Assembly: GCA_024998595.1 (NCBI GenBank)
Contig: JACOEK010000009.1
Location: 1-64,000 of the forward strand
Direction: 5' to 3'
Source: Nitrospira sp.
GTDB lineage: Bacteria > Nitrospirota > Nitrospiria > Nitrospirales > Nitrospiraceae
Length of the DNA stretch: 64,000 nucleotides
This document shows, piece after piece, positions 32,793 through 45,799 of this stretch; position 1 is the first letter of the stretch; each line of letters starts with the position of its first letter. The notes beneath the pieces were generated by a model. The model was not told the DNA's origin and did no database searches. It was given only the letters and a program-made list of their open reading frames with translations. The position numbers were made by a program, and so were the translations under genes.

Positions 32793-34247
32793 TCACTGCG
32801 CACCTCTCGATTTGAGCGCATCGAGGCGCGGTTTGTCGAGCGTGACGTAGATAGATTTTTCCTGCGTCACGGTCACCGCGCCTGGGGCTTGCCCCTTGGC
32901 TTTTTTGACCCATTTGCGACGGGTATAGATGACATCGCCCTTCCCGCTTTTTTTTAAATCGCTGTAGAGCAGAGCCAAGGTGGCCGCATCTCGTACGGTT
33001 TCGGGTGGTGGCTCTGTGCCCTTGTCCAGCCGCACGACGACATGTGAGCCAGGCGTGCCGCGCGCGTGGAGCCAGAGGTCTTCGCTCTTGGCGTGTCCGA
33101 AGGTGAGCTCGTCATTCTCACGGGCATTGCGGCCGACCAGGATGGGATGCCCGTCTGATGAGACAAAACGCCGGAATGGCCCACGGGATTCCCTGTCGAC
33201 CGCGCGGTTCCGTCGCGGGGCCGGCGTCACTCTTTCCGTAGAGCCGCCCTCCGTACTCGGTGCCTGCCAGGTTCCCTGTTTGATCATTTCCAATTCGGCT
33301 TGGGTCTGCTGAACCTCTGTTTCGATCACCGTCAGGCGTGGCGAAATTTCCCGTTGGGCCGACACGAACTTACGATACTTGGCGAAGTACGCATCCATAT
33401 TGGTCTGCGGTCCTTTAGTGGGATCGAGAGGAATCGTCAGCTCAGGTAGTTGTTCGTCGTAATAGTCCACTACTGACACAGCACTCTGGCCCTTCTTGAG
33501 CAGGCCGAGATTCGCCTTCAACAATTCGCCGTACCGTGCATAGGATTCGTATCGTCCGGCCTGGTCGAGGTCGTGACGAAGCGCGGCCATGCGCCGCAGG
33601 AGTTTTTTGAGATTCTTCCGCAATCCGGATTCCCGCTGCCGGATCTGAGTCTGGTGCGACAGTTCTGCTTCGCGCTCGCGATAGAGTATTTCCAGCCGGG
33701 ATGAAAGCGGAAACGGATTTTGGTCGGTCGGGAGTTGAGGCTCCAGTTCGGGGGCGGCCGGGTCATGTGGAGTGGGGCGGGAGGGTATCGCCGTCGGGGG
33801 TTCATAGGTCTGGCCCACTCTGTCTTTATTGTGCCGGATAGTGGCGACCGTCCGGCCTTCTCCATCGAGAAAGAGCAGATCCCCATTGCGGCTGAAGAGT
33901 TCTGCGATGAGAGATACCGGGCCATCTCGACTGGTGAGATCGAGGCGTACGATTCGGTCGCCGGGGATGTGACAAATGGCGTCGATGCGGGCACCCTGGA
34001 TTCGAGCCCGGAGCAGCTGGCAGAAGGAAGGCGGCGTCGGCGGATTGGGCAGGTGCTGATCGACGAAATGAACCCGCGCCGTGTCGTTCCGCAGGGAGCA
34101 GAGCAGTCGCCGAGTATGTCCGGGGACACGAACCTCTAGGATGAGGGTGTCGGAGAGCGGCTGAGAAATTTTCTGAATCCAGCCGTCGGCCAGCGCCGGT
34201 GCAAATTCTTGGACAATGGAACCAATTTCTGTCGCAGTGAGAGCCAT
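32793..34247 (-). CDS. rqcH: NFACT family protein (RqcH/FbpA-like)
   Basis: A 484-residue NFACT protein, the bacterial counterpart of Rqc2, which binds stalled 50S subunits and adds alanine tails for degradation. The NFACT-N domain starts MALTATEIGSIVQEFAPAL and contains PPTPPSFCQLLRARIQGARI, the family's conserved helix. A coiled-coil middle is followed by the NFACT-R domain (GHAKSEDLWLHARGTPGSHVVVR, about residues 370-395). Bacillus RqcH is longer (about 570), so the helical part is shorter here. Calling it rqcH rests on family, not on the tailing residues. It may be cotranscribed with the activator gene downstream. Confidence 0.88.
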   Translation of the reverse strand: MALTATEIGSIVQEFAPALADGWIQKISQPLSDTLILEVRVPGHTRRLLCSLRNDTARVHFVDQHLPNPPTPPSFCQLLRARIQGARIDAICHIPGDRIVRLDLTSRDGPVSLIAELFSRNGDLLFLDGEGRTVATIRHNKDRVGQTYEPPTAIPSRPTPHDPAAPELEPQLPTDQNPFPLSSRLEILYREREAELSHQTQIRQRESGLRKNLKKLLRRMAALRHDLDQAGRYESYARYGELLKANLGLLKKGQSAVSVVDYYDEQLPELTIPLDPTKGPQTNMDAYFAKYRKFVSAQREISPRLTVIETEVQQTQAELEMIKQGTWQAPSTEGGSTERVTPAPRRNRAVDRESRGPFRRFVSSDGHPILVGRNARENDELTFGHAKSEDLWLHARGTPGSHVVVRLDKGTEPPPETVRDAATLALLYSDLKKSGKGDVIYTRRKWVKKAKGQAPGAVTVTQEKSIYVTLDKPRLDALKSRGAQ

Positions 34248-34576: not shown

Positions 34577-34804
34577 ATGACGTGCACGCGATGTGAAGGA
34601 TTAATGGTGATGGACGATTTGGTCGATCTCCAGGAGAGTTATCACCCCATGCGGCTGCGTGGTCACCGGTGCCTTAGTTGCGGCAATGTGGTAGATACGC
34701 TGATTCAACGCCACCGGATGGTCCAGAATTCCCATCTCCGTCCGGTCCGTGCCTCAGTCCCGGAGAAGCCGTTTCTCTTTGATTTGATCAAGCGCACGGC
34801 GTAA
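34577..34804 (+). CDS. Small zinc-ribbon protein
   Basis: A 75-residue protein with two CxxC knuckles, CTRC near the N-terminus and CLSC about 33 residues later (GHRCLSCGNVVD), which should bind one zinc. No further domain is seen. The ATG at 34577 has GGGAGG seven bases upstream. Such proteins are common in this bacterial group; possible roles are nucleic acid or protein binding. A hairpin follows the stop. Confidence 0.8.
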   Translation: MTCTRCEGLMVMDDLVDLQESYHPMRLRGHRCLSCGNVVDTLIQRHRMVQNSHLRPVRASVPEKPFLFDLIKRTA

Positions 34805-34808
34805 ATCG

Positions 34809-34842
34809 CTCCCCCGCGAAGCCGAAGTTGGTTTCGCGGGGA
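34809..34842 (+). terminator. Terminator-like hairpin after the zinc-ribbon gene
   Basis: A GC-rich stem (CCCCGCGAA with TTCGCGGGG and flanking pairs) lies five bases after the stop. The T-run is absent, so termination is possible but not certain. Confidence 0.5.
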
Positions 34843-35043
34843 GGGTCTCCGGGCATCCTTTTCCGCCAGCCAATCCCCACTGCGCTTGCGAGTCTTTTCT
34901 TTACTGCGGCTTTACTGACCCCACGCCTTCACGATCTGTAACCGACGCGGATGTTCCCTGTCATGCTGCCCGCTTGTCAGCGTTCGATCAGTCGCGTAGA
35001 GTGCGCCCGCGGCACTCTCTTTGAGTCAGAAAGGCTGTGAGCG

Positions 35044-36591
35044 ATGACGGTTCTAGATGCGCGGATGCTTGAGCGGTTGATGAAGGAATTTCAGCGATCG
35101 ATGCGAGGTTTGTTGAAGGACGTGTGCCGTGATTTCACCCGGAACTATGCGGACGCTATCTGTACCTTTGAGCTACCGATGGACTGGTTCTTAGCGTTGG
35201 GACAGTCCTTCACGCAGGCGGAGTACAGTAACTGGAAGATGGTGGGGTGGATCGAGTCGCTCAATGACCTTCTGTATTTCGTCGATATTGTGACTCAAGT
35301 GCGACAGGAGCGGTCTCGACGGGATATTGCCGAACAGTTGCGTGCCGAGTTTCGAGAAAAGTTCTACGAGCACGGCTATGCCGATGAGATTTTTCCCAAC
35401 GGCAAACCGGAACCGCGGATGCTTCTCGGACGTCTGACGGCGCTCTGCCATCGGCTGGCTCGTGAGATCACGCAAGAGTCCGTATGTCTTGCCCCGCGGT
35501 TGGCCTGCGCGTGGGTGGCGCAACAACGCCGGGATGCCTGGGTGGTGCCTTGTGATGTGACGGCGAATGTTGAGCGAGTCGAATTGCCCTGGGGCTGCGC
35601 AATCGGCACGGCGGGTGTTTTTTACGGGGCGACGGGTACCGCCCGCACCGCCTTACAGCGCGCAAAGGGTCAGGGGGAGTTCATGATCACGGCGTCCGGA
35701 ATTGAGCTGCTGGTCGGCGATCGGGCCTATCCGATGGTGGAGTGCGGCAGGCATGAGCGCTGGCATTGGCGGCGTCTTGCACCGGTGCCGCTTCGGAATA
35801 GCCGATACGGGTCGCTCGTCCTCGGGCCGACACTCGTCTATGGAAAAGATAAAACGCCGGTCGGTGTGCGGCCTACGAAGGCCGAGGTGGCGAAACGCAT
35901 GCGCCGGGCGGTATCGGCCATTGCTGCCGCCTGGCCGGACGGGGATCGGCTGCTGGCGTTGCTCACCTCGCGCATTGTTCCGTTGAAAGCCGCGGGGGTG
36001 GTGAGCTTCAGTTACCGGCATCGCCCGGGATTATCCGCCATCAATTGTTTTGATCGCGATCAGCTGGATCTAATCGATGACCTGATTCACGAAAACAGTC
36101 ACCACCACCTCAATCTTCTCCTGCGCAACGATGTCATGTATCAGCACGATCACAATCAGGAGATTTTCTATTCGCCCTGGCGGCGCACGCTGCGGCCGCT
36201 GCGCGGAGTTCTGCACGCGACATTCACCTTCACCATGGGCGCCATGCTGTTCGAGCGGCTCGTGGTGTGGGGCTCCGGGAAGGCGGGAAAGACCGGCTGG
36301 AAAAGGGCCGGTCTCAACCCGCGCGATCTCGCCCGTGCTCGATACCGCTGCCTTGAAGAAATCGAATCCGTCCGGTACTCGCTCAAGGATCTTGAGTATG
36401 CAGGCAGCCATCTGAAGTGGCTTACAGGCGGAGGCAGGCAGCTGGTGAAGCAATTACGCGATGCGCTCGCCTCAATGGAGCGCGGGATGCAGGAGTATGA
36501 ACAGGACGTCAGCCGGTCTTCATTCGGTCCCGCCTTGCGCCGGCATCGAGCCGAACTTGCTGAGGCGCGGGAGACGTTGAGCCTGATGTAA
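35044..36591 (+). CDS. HExxH-type putative peptide beta-hydroxylase domain protein
   Basis: A 515-residue protein. Its key signature is IHENSHHHLNLLL (His349, Glu350, His353), followed about 30 residues later by FYSPWRRTLRPLRGVLHATFTF. This pair of motifs matches the HEXXH-motif domain now assigned to aKG-HExxH-type peptide beta-hydroxylases, found next to ribosomally made peptides. The N-terminal 200 residues are helical and the C-terminus (about 430-510) may be coiled coil. I see no precursor peptide within several kb. The ATG at 35044 has a weak upstream site (GAAAGG). The hydroxylase activity is inferred from the domain family; a metalloprotease reading is the alternative. Confidence 0.65.
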   Translation: MTVLDARMLERLMKEFQRSMRGLLKDVCRDFTRNYADAICTFELPMDWFLALGQSFTQAEYSNWKMVGWIESLNDLLYFVDIVTQVRQERSRRDIAEQLRAEFREKFYEHGYADEIFPNGKPEPRMLLGRLTALCHRLAREITQESVCLAPRLACAWVAQQRRDAWVVPCDVTANVERVELPWGCAIGTAGVFYGATGTARTALQRAKGQGEFMITASGIELLVGDRAYPMVECGRHERWHWRRLAPVPLRNSRYGSLVLGPTLVYGKDKTPVGVRPTKAEVAKRMRRAVSAIAAAWPDGDRLLALLTSRIVPLKAAGVVSFSYRHRPGLSAINCFDRDQLDLIDDLIHENSHHHLNLLLRNDVMYQHDHNQEIFYSPWRRTLRPLRGVLHATFTFTMGAMLFERLVVWGSGKAGKTGWKRAGLNPRDLARARYRCLEEIESVRYSLKDLEYAGSHLKWLTGGGRQLVKQLRDALASMERGMQEYEQDVSRSSFGPALRRHRAELAEARETLSLM

Positions 36592-36630
36592 TCCCTGTCG
36601 TAGGTAAATGGTCGTGATTGGGAGGCAGAA

Positions 36631-36662
36631 CGGGCCCCGGCTTCGGTTGAAGCCGGGGCCCG
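36631..36662. terminator. Bidirectional terminator hairpin
   Basis: A perfect 14-bp stem (36631-36644 with 36649-36662) with a GGTT loop lies between convergent genes. Only TTTACT follows on the plus strand. Confidence 0.75.
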
Positions 36663-36730
36663 TTTACTGGGGAGGAGTCTCCCGCGTATTGCCGAACTGC
36701 CAGAACTAGAGCGAGCTTTTTCGCCGGCGG

Positions 36731-40933: not shown

Positions 40934-43900
40934 ATGGATTGTCAGTGGTTCACTCGCGTCACATCGCGCGCCCTCAGCGTTATCGCTGGTGGTGCGCTTG
41001 TGTGCCTACCGCTAGCCGCGTCGGCTGAAAGTCAGCTACACGCGGATCATGCGGTGCCTCAACAAACAGCAATGTCCCATCAACTTCCGCCCTGGGCGGA
41101 AAAGTTGAAGGGGCAAACGATCGTCGAAGATGCGATGGCTGGAAAGCCGGAGCGGTCCGCGATGGTCGAGCAGCAGCACCAACGGGTCATGGAGCATTTG
41201 ACCAATGATCCGCAGGGGCAGGCGGTCAATACGGGTATGTTCAATACCCAGACCATGATGCACCAATATGGGGCGGGCGGTCAGGATCTTCTCTTGATGT
41301 CTGACCCGCGAGTGGAACCAGTGGCAATGACTGGCGGCGGGAAGTGCCCGGCTGCCGCGCCGGTGAAGCAATATAATGTGTCCGCGATCAATGTCGAGAT
41401 CACGCTTAACCAGTGGCTCGATTTTTATCCCGGCTACATGTATACGCTGGATGAAAACCTCGACAAGGTTCGAGCAGAAGAGACGAAGAATCGGGAAGCC
41501 CGCGACAAGGAAGGATTTGACCCCGGTGCGGTGATTCCCGGTGTGCAAGCCCAGTGGATCCAGCCCCTCACGATTCGCGGGAACCAGGGCGACTGCGTCA
41601 AGATCAAGCTGACCAACAAATTAGAAGGTGGCGAAGACGTCAGCCTTCACATCCATGGCTCCAGCATGGTCGTGAGCGCAACCGGTGCCGCAGCCGCTAC
41701 CACGAACTCCGACAGCATCGTCCAGAAGGAGAAGAGCGGCGAGTTTGAGTGGTACATCCACCCAAGCACGCAGGAAGGTGTCCGCCAGTTCCATACGTTC
41801 GCCAATGACCGCGAATTGACCGTGATGGGTCTCTTCGGGTCCTTCGTCGTCGAACCGCGTGGATCCGAGTACCTGGAAGCCTTGGGAACGGGCGATGCGA
41901 CTCCGACCGCGAGCGGTTGGCAAGTCATCATCCGGAACGGCACCGGTCCGGATTTCCGTGAATTCGTCTTGTATTATCACGAGGTCGGCGACGAGGCCTT
42001 CCGCCCCGTCAACAAGAAGGGCGACTTCCTCCCTCAGCGTGACCCGCTGACCGACGCCTACCGTCCGGGTGGCCGTGCGATTAACTATCGCAGCGAACCG
42101 TTCGGCATCAACAACATGCACGTGCAGCACGAGTACTTCGGCTTCGAAGACGAGTCGATGGGGTACAGCTCGTACACCTTCGGCGATCCGTCGCCCACGA
42201 TCCCGCGCTCGTACATGGGCGACCCGGCGAAGTTCCGCCTGGTCCATGGCGGATCGGAAGTGTTCCATAGCCACCATCCGCATGGCGGCACCATCCGGTG
42301 GCCGCGCAGCCCGCGCGCCATCGATGACATGAATCTGTGGACGACCGCTGGAAACGGACCGGTCAAGTATCCGGTGATCCGTGCCAAGACGGATCGTGTC
42401 GACGTCGAAGTCATCGGGCCGTCGGAAGCGTTGGACCTCGAGACGGAGTGCGGCTCCGGGTTGTGCCAGCAGTTGGCCGGCGATTTCCTGTTCCATTGCC
42501 ACGTGGCGCACCATTATGTGGCGGGCATGTGGGGATACTGGCGGGTCTACAACACCCTTCAACAGGGCGACATGCGTAATGACGTCATGCCGGATCTGCT
42601 TGAGTTGCCCGATCGGAAAGGTCGCATCAAGGGGCCGATCACGTCGGACAAGTTAGTCGGTCAGACCGTGGATTGGTTCGGCAAGTCCTTCAAGATCGTC
42701 GAGAAGGGCAAGAGCGATTGGAAGTCCAATCCGGCCACCGTCACGATCAAGGACTGGGTCGAGATGCAGCTCCCGACGATGGGCAAGCCGGGACACAAGA
42801 ACGACGAAAAGGGACAGACCGTGTCCTACGATGCCACGGTGTTGGATTGGGCCTGGGAAGGCACCCGTGCATTGAGCGAACCGGAAAGCGCGATCGACAA
42901 TCCGAAGTATAAGTCGACCCATCCGGGCAAGCGGCACCCGATCACATTCGAGCCGTTGACCGGTAAAGTCGCCTGGCCTCACCTCACCCCGCATTTCGGG
43001 AGACGCGTCATGTTCTCCCCGAACCATGTGGGTGCGCCCTGGTTGGAGATGATCCGCCGGGATGCCAACGGCGAGGAAAGCGTCGATCAGGCCCTGCCCG
43101 GTGAAAACGGTAACTGGAGTCTCTGCCCGGAGAATGCGGGCCGGAAACACTACAACGTGCACTTCATCAAGCTCCCGATCACCATCGCCAAGAAAACGGG
43201 CAAGGAGCCGCCGGTCATCGATCCGAACGGCTTGATCTATGTCTTGCATGAAGAAGAGGCGGAGATTCGGAAGAACGATGATTTGAAGTATCCGCTGGTC
43301 GTCCGCGGCAACATCTACGATTGCGTGGACTGGACCCTGACCAGCGAGTGGGACGACGATGACTACACCAACTTCCAGTCGTCGAAGATCAACACCCACT
43401 GGCATTTCCTGCAGTTCGACAACCAAGCCTCCGACGGTGTGATCACCGGATTCTCCTATGAGCAATCCGTGCGTCCGTTCACGATGCTGGAGAAGAAGAA
43501 TGCGAAGGGGCTTCCCGCCCCGATGAACACCGTCGTGACCGCCGCCGCTAAGAAGGGCGCGAACACGATCACGGTGAAGAATGCCAAGCAGTTCCATGTC
43601 GGGACACTGCTGCTTGTTGGTGCCGACAATGTGAAGGGGAATGAAATCTCCCGCATCAAGGCCATCAGCGGCAATACGATTACGTTGGCCAAAGGGCTGA
43701 AAAACGATCACCCGGCCAATGACATCGTCACGGTCGAGTTCGTGCGTCAGCGGTTCTGGGTCGATGCGGACGTGGGGACGGTGTTCTGGCACGACCATGC
43801 GTTCGGTGCGACCACCTGGCCGCACGGCGGCTTCGGCACCTTCATCGCCGAACCGGTTGGATCGACTTATCATGATCCAAAGACTGGAAAATTGATCCGC

Positions 43901-45799
43901 AGCGGACCGATCGCGGACATTCACACGAACGAGCCGGTTGGTCATGGCGTGAACAACAGCTTCCGTGAATTGATGGTCCAAGTGCACGACACCGTGCCGC
44001 ACACCGTCAACATCGTGACGGCGGGCAATCCTCCCGGGCAGCCGATCGAAGTTGCGCTCGAGGCAGGAAAGACCGTCTCGTTCATGATGCCGGAGAAGAT
44101 CTATATGACACCGATGCCGTTCTTGAACGGTGGTACGCATACCACCGGCAGCGGCTTGAATTTCAGGGCGGCGCCGGTTGCGCAACGGTTGGCGACCAAC
44201 CCTGATTCGTCACAGATTTTCAGCAGCCTGGTCCACGGTGATCCGTACACGCCGACCTTGCGTGCCTATGTCGGTGACACGATGGTCTTCCGTCTGCTGC
44301 ACACCCTCATGAACGAGTCGATGGTCTGGACCCTGTCCGGCCACACGTTCTGGACCGAGCGGTATGCATCGGATGCGAACCGGAAGAATTCGATTCACAT
44401 CGGTATCGCGGAGCGGTATGACCTCGTTGTGCCGGAAGCGGGTGGGTCCCGGCATCAAGCCGGCGACTATATCCATTTCAACGGCCGGTCCTCGAAGTTT
44501 TCCGAGGGCGGCTGGGGAATCATCCGGGTGTTGGACAAGGAGCAGGGAGATTTGAAGAAGCTGCCCGCGGGCTTCTCCATCAAGGGTGACATTCCGAAGA
44601 CCTTGCCGGTCTGTCCCGCTGATGCTCCTGTGAAACAGTTCAACGTGGTGGCGATGGACTATGCCGGCATGAAGTTCAATGCCAAGGCACCTGAATCCAT
44701 CGAGGTGGACTTCGAGCGGCGGATCCTCATGACCAATGCGGAAGCGAAGATCTACGCCTTGGAAGAGGACACCGCAAAAGTCGCCGCCGGCGCGCATCCG
44801 ATGCCGCTGACGCTCCGTGTGAACAGCGGTGATTGCGTCAAGGTGCACTTGAAGAACAAGATGAAGGACAGCAAAGCTTCCTTCTCTGCGATCGGCCTGG
44901 CCTTCGATCCGAAGGATTCCATGGGCGCGAACGTGGGGAACAATCCGGGAGACCAGACCGTGGCTCCGGGAGGCGAGCGTGACTACACCTATTATGCTGA
45001 TCCGTTTAACGGCGAGACCGCTTCGTTGGTGTGGGATTGGGGTAATGTGATGACCAATCCTCGCAACGGGTTGTTCGGTGCCGTCGTCGTCGGGCCCAAG
45101 GGATCGAAGTATCGTGATCCCAAGACCGGCGCGGATCTTTCCAATAAGAATGCCTGGGCGGCGGATGTCATCATCGATCATTCGGTACCGGGCAATGAAC
45201 TGCGGGCGAATTATCGTGACGTGGCGTTGTTCTTCCAGGACGAAGACAACATCATCGGCACGAGTTTCATGCCATATGTGCAGAACGTGGCGGGTTTGAC
45301 CGGCGTCAATTACCGGTCGGAGCCGTACAAGTTCCGTGAAGAGCAGGGTTGTTCACTCGGCAAGGTATTCCAACCTTGCAAGGCGGATAAGCCCGAAGAT
45401 CCTGCGACTCCGGTCATCGAGGCGCATGCCGGTGACCCGGTGCGCATCCATATACTGGGTGTGAGCAACGAGCAGAACGGCATGTTCAGCGTCGAGAAAC
45501 ACGAATGGCCGATCGAGCCGTTCATGCGTGGCGCTGACTTGATCAGTGTCGTGGAATTCTCCGGCTCCGAGACGATCGATGCGTTCATCCCCTCGGCGGG
45601 TGGAATGTATCGGCTGCCCGGAGACTATGTGTATAGCAACCAGCGGTTGCCTTACTCGCAGTCTGGCCAGTGGGGCTATGTGCGAGTATTGCCGTCTGGT
45701 GATACGAGGTTGCTCCCGCTGACCGGCGCCGGTGCCGGGGCGAAGAGTGCCGAAGTGAAGCAGCCGGCTGCGCACGCGATGCCTGTCGCGTCGAAGTAA
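40934..45799 (+). CDS. Giant multicopper oxidase (1621 residues)
   Basis: An exported multicopper oxidase more than three times the size of a laccase, with a signal peptide (about residues 1-31). Copper motifs in order are: HIH at 239-241, HSHHPHG at 445-450, the full type-1/type-3 loop HCHVAHHYVAGM (521-532: His521, Cys522, His523, His527, Met532), HWH at 822-824, and HDH at 953-955. The trinuclear ligands lie on both sides of the one type-1 loop, as in large MnxG/MofA-like oxidases. From about residue 1000 onward, cupredoxin-like segments recur without a type-1 Cys. The ATG has AGGAGG upstream. Substrate is unknown: manganese, Fe(II), Cu(I) or an organic compound. Three cupredoxin-like proteins downstream are probable partners. 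Confidence 0.9.
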   Translation: MDCQWFTRVTSRALSVIAGGALVCLPLAASAESQLHADHAVPQQTAMSHQLPPWAEKLKGQTIVEDAMAGKPERSAMVEQQHQRVMEHLTNDPQGQAVNTGMFNTQTMMHQYGAGGQDLLLMSDPRVEPVAMTGGGKCPAAAPVKQYNVSAINVEITLNQWLDFYPGYMYTLDENLDKVRAEETKNREARDKEGFDPGAVIPGVQAQWIQPLTIRGNQGDCVKIKLTNKLEGGEDVSLHIHGSSMVVSATGAAAATTNSDSIVQKEKSGEFEWYIHPSTQEGVRQFHTFANDRELTVMGLFGSFVVEPRGSEYLEALGTGDATPTASGWQVIIRNGTGPDFREFVLYYHEVGDEAFRPVNKKGDFLPQRDPLTDAYRPGGRAINYRSEPFGINNMHVQHEYFGFEDESMGYSSYTFGDPSPTIPRSYMGDPAKFRLVHGGSEVFHSHHPHGGTIRWPRSPRAIDDMNLWTTAGNGPVKYPVIRAKTDRVDVEVIGPSEALDLETECGSGLCQQLAGDFLFHCHVAHHYVAGMWGYWRVYNTLQQGDMRNDVMPDLLELPDRKGRIKGPITSDKLVGQTVDWFGKSFKIVEKGKSDWKSNPATVTIKDWVEMQLPTMGKPGHKNDEKGQTVSYDATVLDWAWEGTRALSEPESAIDNPKYKSTHPGKRHPITFEPLTGKVAWPHLTPHFGRRVMFSPNHVGAPWLEMIRRDANGEESVDQALPGENGNWSLCPENAGRKHYNVHFIKLPITIAKKTGKEPPVIDPNGLIYVLHEEEAEIRKNDDLKYPLVVRGNIYDCVDWTLTSEWDDDDYTNFQSSKINTHWHFLQFDNQASDGVITGFSYEQSVRPFTMLEKKNAKGLPAPMNTVVTAAAKKGANTITVKNAKQFHVGTLLLVGADNVKGNEISRIKAISGNTITLAKGLKNDHPANDIVTVEFVRQRFWVDADVGTVFWHDHAFGATTWPHGGFGTFIAEPVGSTYHDPKTGKLIRSGPIADIHTNEPVGHGVNNSFRELMVQVHDTVPHTVNIVTAGNPPGQPIEVALEAGKTVSFMMPEKIYMTPMPFLNGGTHTTGSGLNFRAAPVAQRLATNPDSSQIFSSLVHGDPYTPTLRAYVGDTMVFRLLHTLMNESMVWTLSGHTFWTERYASDANRKNSIHIGIAERYDLVVPEAGGSRHQAGDYIHFNGRSSKFSEGGWGIIRVLDKEQGDLKKLPAGFSIKGDIPKTLPVCPADAPVKQFNVVAMDYAGMKFNAKAPESIEVDFERRILMTNAEAKIYALEEDTAKVAAGAHPMPLTLRVNSGDCVKVHLKNKMKDSKASFSAIGLAFDPKDSMGANVGNNPGDQTVAPGGERDYTYYADPFNGETASLVWDWGNVMTNPRNGLFGAVVVGPKGSKYRDPKTGADLSNKNAWAADVIIDHSVPGNELRANYRDVALFFQDEDNIIGTSFMPYVQNVAGLTGVNYRSEPYKFREEQGCSLGKVFQPCKADKPEDPATPVIEAHAGDPVRIHILGVSNEQNGMFSVEKHEWPIEPFMRGADLISVVEFSGSETIDAFIPSAGGMYRLPGDYVYSNQRLPYSQSGQWGYVRVLPSGDTRLLPLTGAGAGAKSAEVKQPAAHAMPVASK

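Follow-up and report, generated by a model that had tools for sequence, protein, structure and literature searches.

A stand-alone HExxH peptide beta-hydroxylase-like protein encoded by a conserved gene of the Nitrospiraceae

What does a putative peptide hydroxylase act on when it is encoded on its own, with no peptide-modifying partners beside it? This question is raised by the gene for a 515-amino-acid protein in a stretch of 64,000 nucleotides from Nitrospira sp. (contig JACOEK010000009.1, positions 1 to 64,000; hereafter the window). The protein resembles the aKG-HExxH enzymes, on which Morishita et al. (2024) is reportedly the founding paper. These enzymes have recently been recognised as oxygenases and are treated, in the accessible parts of three reports, as tailoring enzymes of ribosomally synthesised and post-translationally modified peptides (RiPPs) (PMC12636437, PMC13060819, PMC12707348). 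By sequence and predicted fold the Nitrospira protein is of this known kind, but its stand-alone, core-gene context is unlike that of the characterised relatives, and a literature search that covered few subscription journals found no description of a stand-alone core-gene member. We read the protein as a free-standing Fe(II)/alpha-ketoglutarate-dependent peptidyl beta-hydroxylase that would act in trans on a conserved substrate from another locus, be it a protein or a peptide, and we put the probability of this reading at about 0.72.

The initial annotation of the window had placed the protein in the HExxH peptide beta-hydroxylase family on account of a HENSHHH motif and a block downstream of it. 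This placement is borne out by the domain model, since TIGR04267 (mod_HExxH, aKG-HExxH-type peptide beta-hydroxylase) matches with 68.5 bits (E=6.9e-19), above its curated cut-off of 40 bits, and is the sole NCBIfam match of the protein at E up to 1. Searches of Pfam and PADLOC with the same protein gave no match, and a search of PHROGs gave a weak match alone (E=0.097). In the orthologue alignment of 50 sequences, here called A2, every member matches TIGR04267 at E up to 0.01, and the additional weak Pfam or NCBIfam matches of a few members are read as noise. A structure predicted from A2 (predicted local distance difference test, pLDDT, 91.8; predicted template-modelling score, pTM, 0.89) sets the protein beside two known enzymes, ChlH, which is the HExxH domain of ChlBH from Chlorogloeopsis (PDB 8s5f), and SjiH (PDB 22ob, titled SjiH-Ni, and 22nu, identical in sequence). 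Foldseek ranks 22ob and four 8s5f chains first and finds nothing else at E up to 0.001, while VIA-align superposes the model on ChlH with Z 23.9 over 296 residues (root mean square deviation, rmsd, 3.5; model residues 1 to 479) and on SjiH with Z 21.1 over 376 residues (rmsd 4.4; model residues 1 to 503). These aligned ranges include the helices at the N-terminus of the predicted model as well as its beta-rich central part. SNARE-like proteins and designed helical bundles, which appear with Z 7-10, mostly cover the C-terminal helices and were set aside as common helical arrangements. The fold, named in the initial annotation as a further check, is thus predicted to lie nearest to ChlH and SjiH and not to be that of a metallopeptidase. 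Direct comparison of sequences leads to the same relatives: phmmer detects ChlH 8s5f at E=7.5e-9 over residues 319-398 and, weakly, 22nu at E=0.035, and a profile search with A2 detects 8s5f at E=3.7e-11 and 22nu at E=0.0012. With ChlH the protein shares the fold (from the predicted model), the HExxH motif and the pattern SPWR..LRP..G.LH, but it is free-standing and has no cluster around it. With SjiH it shares the predicted fold along the protein, the HExxH motif and the PWR..LRP..G block, but only 14% sequence identity.

The putative active site is strongly conserved among the orthologues. H349, E350, H353, H354, P378, W379, R380, L383, R384, P385 and G388 are invariant in 50/50 A2 sequences, and the residues of the second motif among them (P378, W379, R380, L383, R384, P385 and G388) are common to the Nitrospira protein, ChlH and SjiH. 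The invariance of H349, E350 and H353 takes the motif far beyond a chance HExxH. H391 is histidine in 49/50 orthologues and in ChlH, but the position is glutamine in SjiH and in 1/50 orthologues, and we do not claim this residue as the third metal ligand. The core, residues 314-406, has a mean pairwise identity of 89% in A2, compared with 43% for the beta-rich region (residues 166-286), and 48 of the 95 invariant positions fall inside these 93 core residues. For the 13 nearer of the 49 orthologues the ratio of non-synonymous to synonymous substitution rates (dN/dS) is 0.018-0.064 in the core and 0.08-0.15 over the whole gene, values that are rough because synonymous sites are already well diverged.

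In the studied relatives, as far as the accessible parts of their reports go, the HExxH motif binds iron and the enzymes hydroxylate peptidyl His, Asp, Phe, Gln or Pro in an alpha-ketoglutarate-dependent reaction, and PflC can in addition cut a backbone, oxidatively or, if the leader is absent, hydrolytically (PMC12636437, PMC13060819, PMC12707348, PMC12257519). Because family and fold are shared with these relatives, we infer the same chemistry here: judged by sequence and model, the protein very probably belongs to the class of aKG-HExxH peptidyl beta-hydroxylases, and it presumably uses iron and alpha-ketoglutarate in catalysis. In the mechanism that we propose, H349 and H353, together with E350, would hold the metal, the PWR..LRP..G block would complete the pocket for cosubstrate and substrate, and the enzyme would hydroxylate a peptidyl residue at a side-chain C-H, in the characterised relatives mostly that of the beta carbon. 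The N-terminus suggests a cytoplasmic location.

The distribution of the gene is that of a core gene of one family. Among 295 genomes drawn from the phylum, of which 79 belong to the window's family (Nitrospiraceae), a profile of the protein (A1) matches 80. The long form is present in 77/79 genomes of the family, always above the TIGR04267 cut-off, and in none outside it, where the profile matches three distant shorter forms (G052, G304, G317). In a smaller set of 61 genomes, consisting of the own genome and relatives, 34 match, namely 33/37 in the window's family and the distant form in G052. For the scan of related loci the best 80 of 121 relatives were used (L076-L155); 79 of these carry the name Nitrospira, Nitrospirae, Nitrospirota or Nitrospiraceae, one is labelled 'Nitrosospira sp. 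isolate NOB2', and Ca. Nitrospira defluvii (L083) and N. moscoviensis (L097) are among the relatives. Part of the beta-rich region is missing from the long form in G032 and G034, and the long form in G003 is cut by a contig end. As for the absences, G006 lacks the hydroxylase gene together with the NFACT-domain and APC permease genes that usually accompany it, so an assembly gap is likely; G028, with no match, is 66% complete; and G036 and G035 are also without a match, the contig beginning within the Ig-like gene that usually lies downstream in G036 and ending 3.3 kb beyond that gene in G035. Leaving aside G231, to which we return below, every member of the Nitrospiraceae may have the enzyme. 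In two genomes, additional C-terminal pieces of the HExxH protein were seen besides the main gene (G032:C51:952-1131, G159:C76:413-682 and G159:C5:5-160).

The initial annotation had also described the gene as an orphan without a precursor or partner enzyme nearby, a description that proved to understate the case, for this is a near-universal core gene of one family with, in the loci searched, no RiPP partners found alongside. Partner profiles built from four radical S-adenosylmethionine (SAM), two MNIO and three YhhC-type 2-oxoglutarate (2OG) proteins were used to search the reading frames of the window and of the 80 related loci (81 loci, 1.44 Mb). Neither MNIO nor YhhC gave a match in these 81 loci, and the lone radical-SAM match is weak (L150, E=4.1e-6, 4.2 kb upstream). 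As controls, the source sequences of the profiles were all recovered. A radical-SAM gene independent of these sequences was also detected in L205. Clustering of the open reading frames (ORFs) of 20-150 amino acids within 3.5 kb revealed no family common to all 81 loci, and 50 families reach at least 8 of them. The widest occupies 44 loci, and 91/112 of its members overlap the ORF of a small zinc-ribbon-like protein, mostly in antisense; the second-widest (40 loci) is this zinc-ribbon ORF itself. The remaining families reach at most 32 loci and include, by eye, AbrB/MazE-like and RRM-like ORFs.

The surroundings of the gene (Table 1) have been retained along with it. Sequence is available for 4 kb upstream in 67 and for 7 kb downstream in 53 of the 80 named loci. 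A divergent NFACT gene lies within 4 kb in 63/67 loci, an Ig-like gene follows downstream in 48/53 and an APC permease gene in 50/53. Over the 50 loci in which all three genes are nearly complete, the pairwise distances between the enzyme sequences correlate with those measured for NFACT (r=0.897) and for the APC permease (r=0.791), which suggests an old syntenic block passed on vertically. Where the gene has moved, no consistent partner emerged: by eye, the neighbours differ among the 12 loci compared, ten of them chosen for lying away from the usual NFACT surroundings and the other two being G032 and G034, and none is common to all. A mobile or viral origin was rejected, as there was no plasmid match and no viral-contig match and the GC content of the gene is 0.597 vs 0.576 for the window. 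The zinc-ribbon ORF is found within 2.5 kb upstream in 39/67 loci only and its protein matches the own genome at 12 places, its own locus among them, so it was rejected as the main candidate for a precursor. A terminator scan listed neither of the two stable hairpins that flank the hydroxylase gene as an intrinsic terminator; we infer that the gene may be transcribed monocistronically.

Table 1. Coordinates of the hydroxylase-like gene, its parts and its immediate context in the window
Feature	Position	Strand	Basis or remark
Hydroxylase ORF, 515 aa, ATG start	35044..36591	+	aKG-HExxH-type peptide beta-hydroxylase-like; TIGR04267, model, ChlH/SjiH match
N-terminal helical part, residues 1-165	35044..35538	+	Secondary structure of model; within ChlH/SjiH-aligned range
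Beta-rich part, residues 166-276, most variable; partly missing in G032, G034	35539..35871	+	Model and alignment
TIGR04267 domain match, residues 287-405	35902..36258	+	NCBIfam profile
HENSHHH, residues 349-355, holds HExxH	36088..36108	+	Aligns to HEHRH of ChlH and HEFQH of SjiH
YSPWRRTLRPLRGVLH block, residues 376-391	36169..36216	+	Partly common to ChlH and SjiH
NFACT-domain protein, divergent neighbour (context)	32793..34247	-	PF05833, PF05670
75-aa zinc-ribbon-like protein (context)	34577..34804	+	PF08271 match below cut-off
Stable hairpin between zinc-ribbon ORF and hydroxylase gene, no T run	34808..34846	+	66-nt stretch, -32.0 kcal/mol, z -2.95
Stable hairpin directly 3' of gene, no T run	36626..36669	+	56-nt stretch, -38.1 kcal/mol, z -5.14

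The nearly frozen core and the family-wide retention together suggest that the enzyme serves one invariant substrate encoded elsewhere. The hydroxylase would then be the product of a vertically inherited Nitrospiraceae core gene that acts on this substrate in trans, with a cell protein that is conserved, or a single conserved peptide, as a more likely substrate than a diversifying natural product. That the substrate is something other than a RiPP has, in our estimate, an even chance. A more specific proposal, namely a housekeeping protein beta-hydroxylase that carries out an oxygen-dependent modification of a conserved cell protein across the Nitrospiraceae, for example in translation or nitrite oxidation, is tentative and falls somewhat short of even odds. 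Ribosomal oxygenases would be its analogues in role, with a different fold, and to our knowledge a housekeeping member, if true, would be the first such aKG-HExxH enzyme. Four points weigh against a dedicated stand-alone hydroxylase. G231, a genome that is 94% complete, has no hydroxylase gene while its NFACT and zinc-ribbon genes are present, so the gene may be dispensable, or an assembly gap may be responsible. The partner profiles were built from just 2 to 4 sequences each and the flanks of the loci are unequal. An orphan MNIO-like enzyme in the own genome could be part of a scattered RiPP-like pathway. Finally, a hydrolytic role is possible by analogy with PflC, which is described in the accessible part of its report as hydrolysing peptides without a leader (PMC12636437). 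That a nitrite-oxidising genus has a stand-alone, family-wide member under strong constraint suggests a possible use of the aKG-HExxH fold in cell physiology as well, and warns against reading the TIGR04267 family name by itself as a sign of a RiPP cluster. The proposed hydroxylation also makes a defined prediction, a +16 Da protein in Nitrospira.

The alternative that survives best, though we consider it unlikely, is that the protein is a RiPP tailoring enzyme of the ordinary sort, with the precursor and the other enzymes encoded at other sites of the genome. The characterised members do modify RiPP precursors: PflC/PosC, BipH/BpmH and PesO are aKG-HExxH enzymes according to their authors, and the pfl, bip and pes clusters hold an MNIO besides the precursor, one instance of the co-occurrence of MNIO and HExxH enzymes in known clusters, as far as the accessible parts of these reports describe them (PMC12636437, PMC13060819, PMC12707348). 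These enzymes, which we liken to the Nitrospira protein by description and not by sequence, differ from it in being encoded in RiPP clusters with a precursor. The own genome also holds an MNIO-like gene, an orphan of 500 amino acids (L192:7300-8799 (-), equal to G000:C9:314300-315799; PF05114 49 bits, cut-off 25) that adjoins, by eye, dusA- and maf-like genes. Such a gene occurs in 107/295 genomes, made up of 78/79 in the window's family (a fragment in G313) and 29 others, and this near-universal presence in the family favours a dispersed pathway. Against it, neither the A1 profile search nor the TIGR04267 search gave an HExxH match at E up to 0.001 in 31 of these 107 genomes (the 29 others, G006 and G231), and no nitrile-hydratase-type leader was seen in the 22 genomes of the window's family that were examined. 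Nor would we expect a gene of a RiPP cluster to show a core-gene distribution, a signal of vertical descent and an active site that has hardly changed. It is possible that the MNIO-like protein and the hydroxylase work in one pathway, but their distribution gives no indication of it. A strong MNIO gene was also seen at another locus (L193:6976-8192 (-); PF05114 E=1.8e-106), where a 119-amino-acid Cys-containing small protein encoded upstream has, by eye, the look of a bufferin precursor.

It is improbable that the protein is a zincin-type metallopeptidase. The HExxH motif would fit such an enzyme, and zincin peptidases do appear in the VIA-align list, the best of them being leukotriene A4 hydrolase and aminopeptidase N at Z 6.1. 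Moreover, the accessible part of PMC12636437 calls the family fold reminiscent of zincins and describes for PflC a hydrolytic cleavage of a truncated substrate. However, the aKG-HExxH structures lead that list with Z 21-24, the protein has the PWR..LRP..G block in common with ChlH and SjiH, and it matches no Pfam family and no NCBIfam peptidase model.

We give just as little credence to a role in ribosome-associated quality control or translation exercised together with the divergent NFACT-domain gene. The proximity of this gene in most loci and its closely correlated distances would favour such a role, but other neighbours such as the APC permease are also kept. A functional link is possible and not more than that, because NFACT is wider in distribution (124/295 genomes of the phylum) and does not always lie near the enzyme gene, the two being on different contigs or 38 kb from each other in G117, G186, G250, G319 and G244; in G034 and G263 the enzyme is present and NFACT was not detected. 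The idea that the adjoining 75-amino-acid zinc-ribbon protein is the substrate is the least credible of all, for despite its position on the same strand directly upstream in the window and near the gene in 39/67 loci, it was not found there in the other 28/67, has its 12 matching places in the own genome, is kept in G231, which lacks the enzyme, and is separated from the hydroxylase gene by a stable hairpin.

Other HExxH genes of the phylum stand in a different context. Five further genes in the 295 genomes score above the TIGR04267 cut-off, and 5/5 adjoin a radical-SAM gene. Those of G052, G304 (both of one genus) and G317 lie inside clusters of YhhB radical-SAM and YhhC 2OG genes, that of G242:C96 adjoins a radical-SAM protein for which PapB scores best among the models, though below cut-off, and that of G315:C9 adjoins a radical-SAM gene detected at E=3.2e-25. 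For G158 and G080, in which TIGR04267 matches below cut-off, there was no radical-SAM match in the surrounding 19 kb. The HExxH proteins of the five loci concerned (L055, L162, L163, L161, L205) resemble the window protein in their TIGR04267 score above cut-off, but they are shorter (295 to 459 amino acids) and have the radical-SAM gene alongside. In G242 and G315 such a gene is a second, different TIGR04267 gene besides the core gene; it stands next to the radical-SAM gene at L161:8889-11736 (-) and L205:7669-10526 (-), and these loci are likely RiPP clusters in genomes that also hold the core hydroxylase gene.

At the remaining three loci (L055:7496-12455, L162:6913-11893 and L163:7482-12230) the YhhB radical-SAM, YhhC 2OG and HExxH genes adjoin Septu defence genes, PtuA-like in 3/3 and PtuB-like in the scanned L055 and L163. 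A literature search on Septu together with radical SAM and RiPPs found no report of such an association. Further downstream in the window itself, positions 40934-45799 (+) encode a 1621-amino-acid multicopper oxidase (PF07732) with a partial match to the manganese oxidase MnxG, at 132 bits, far below the cut-off of 3100.
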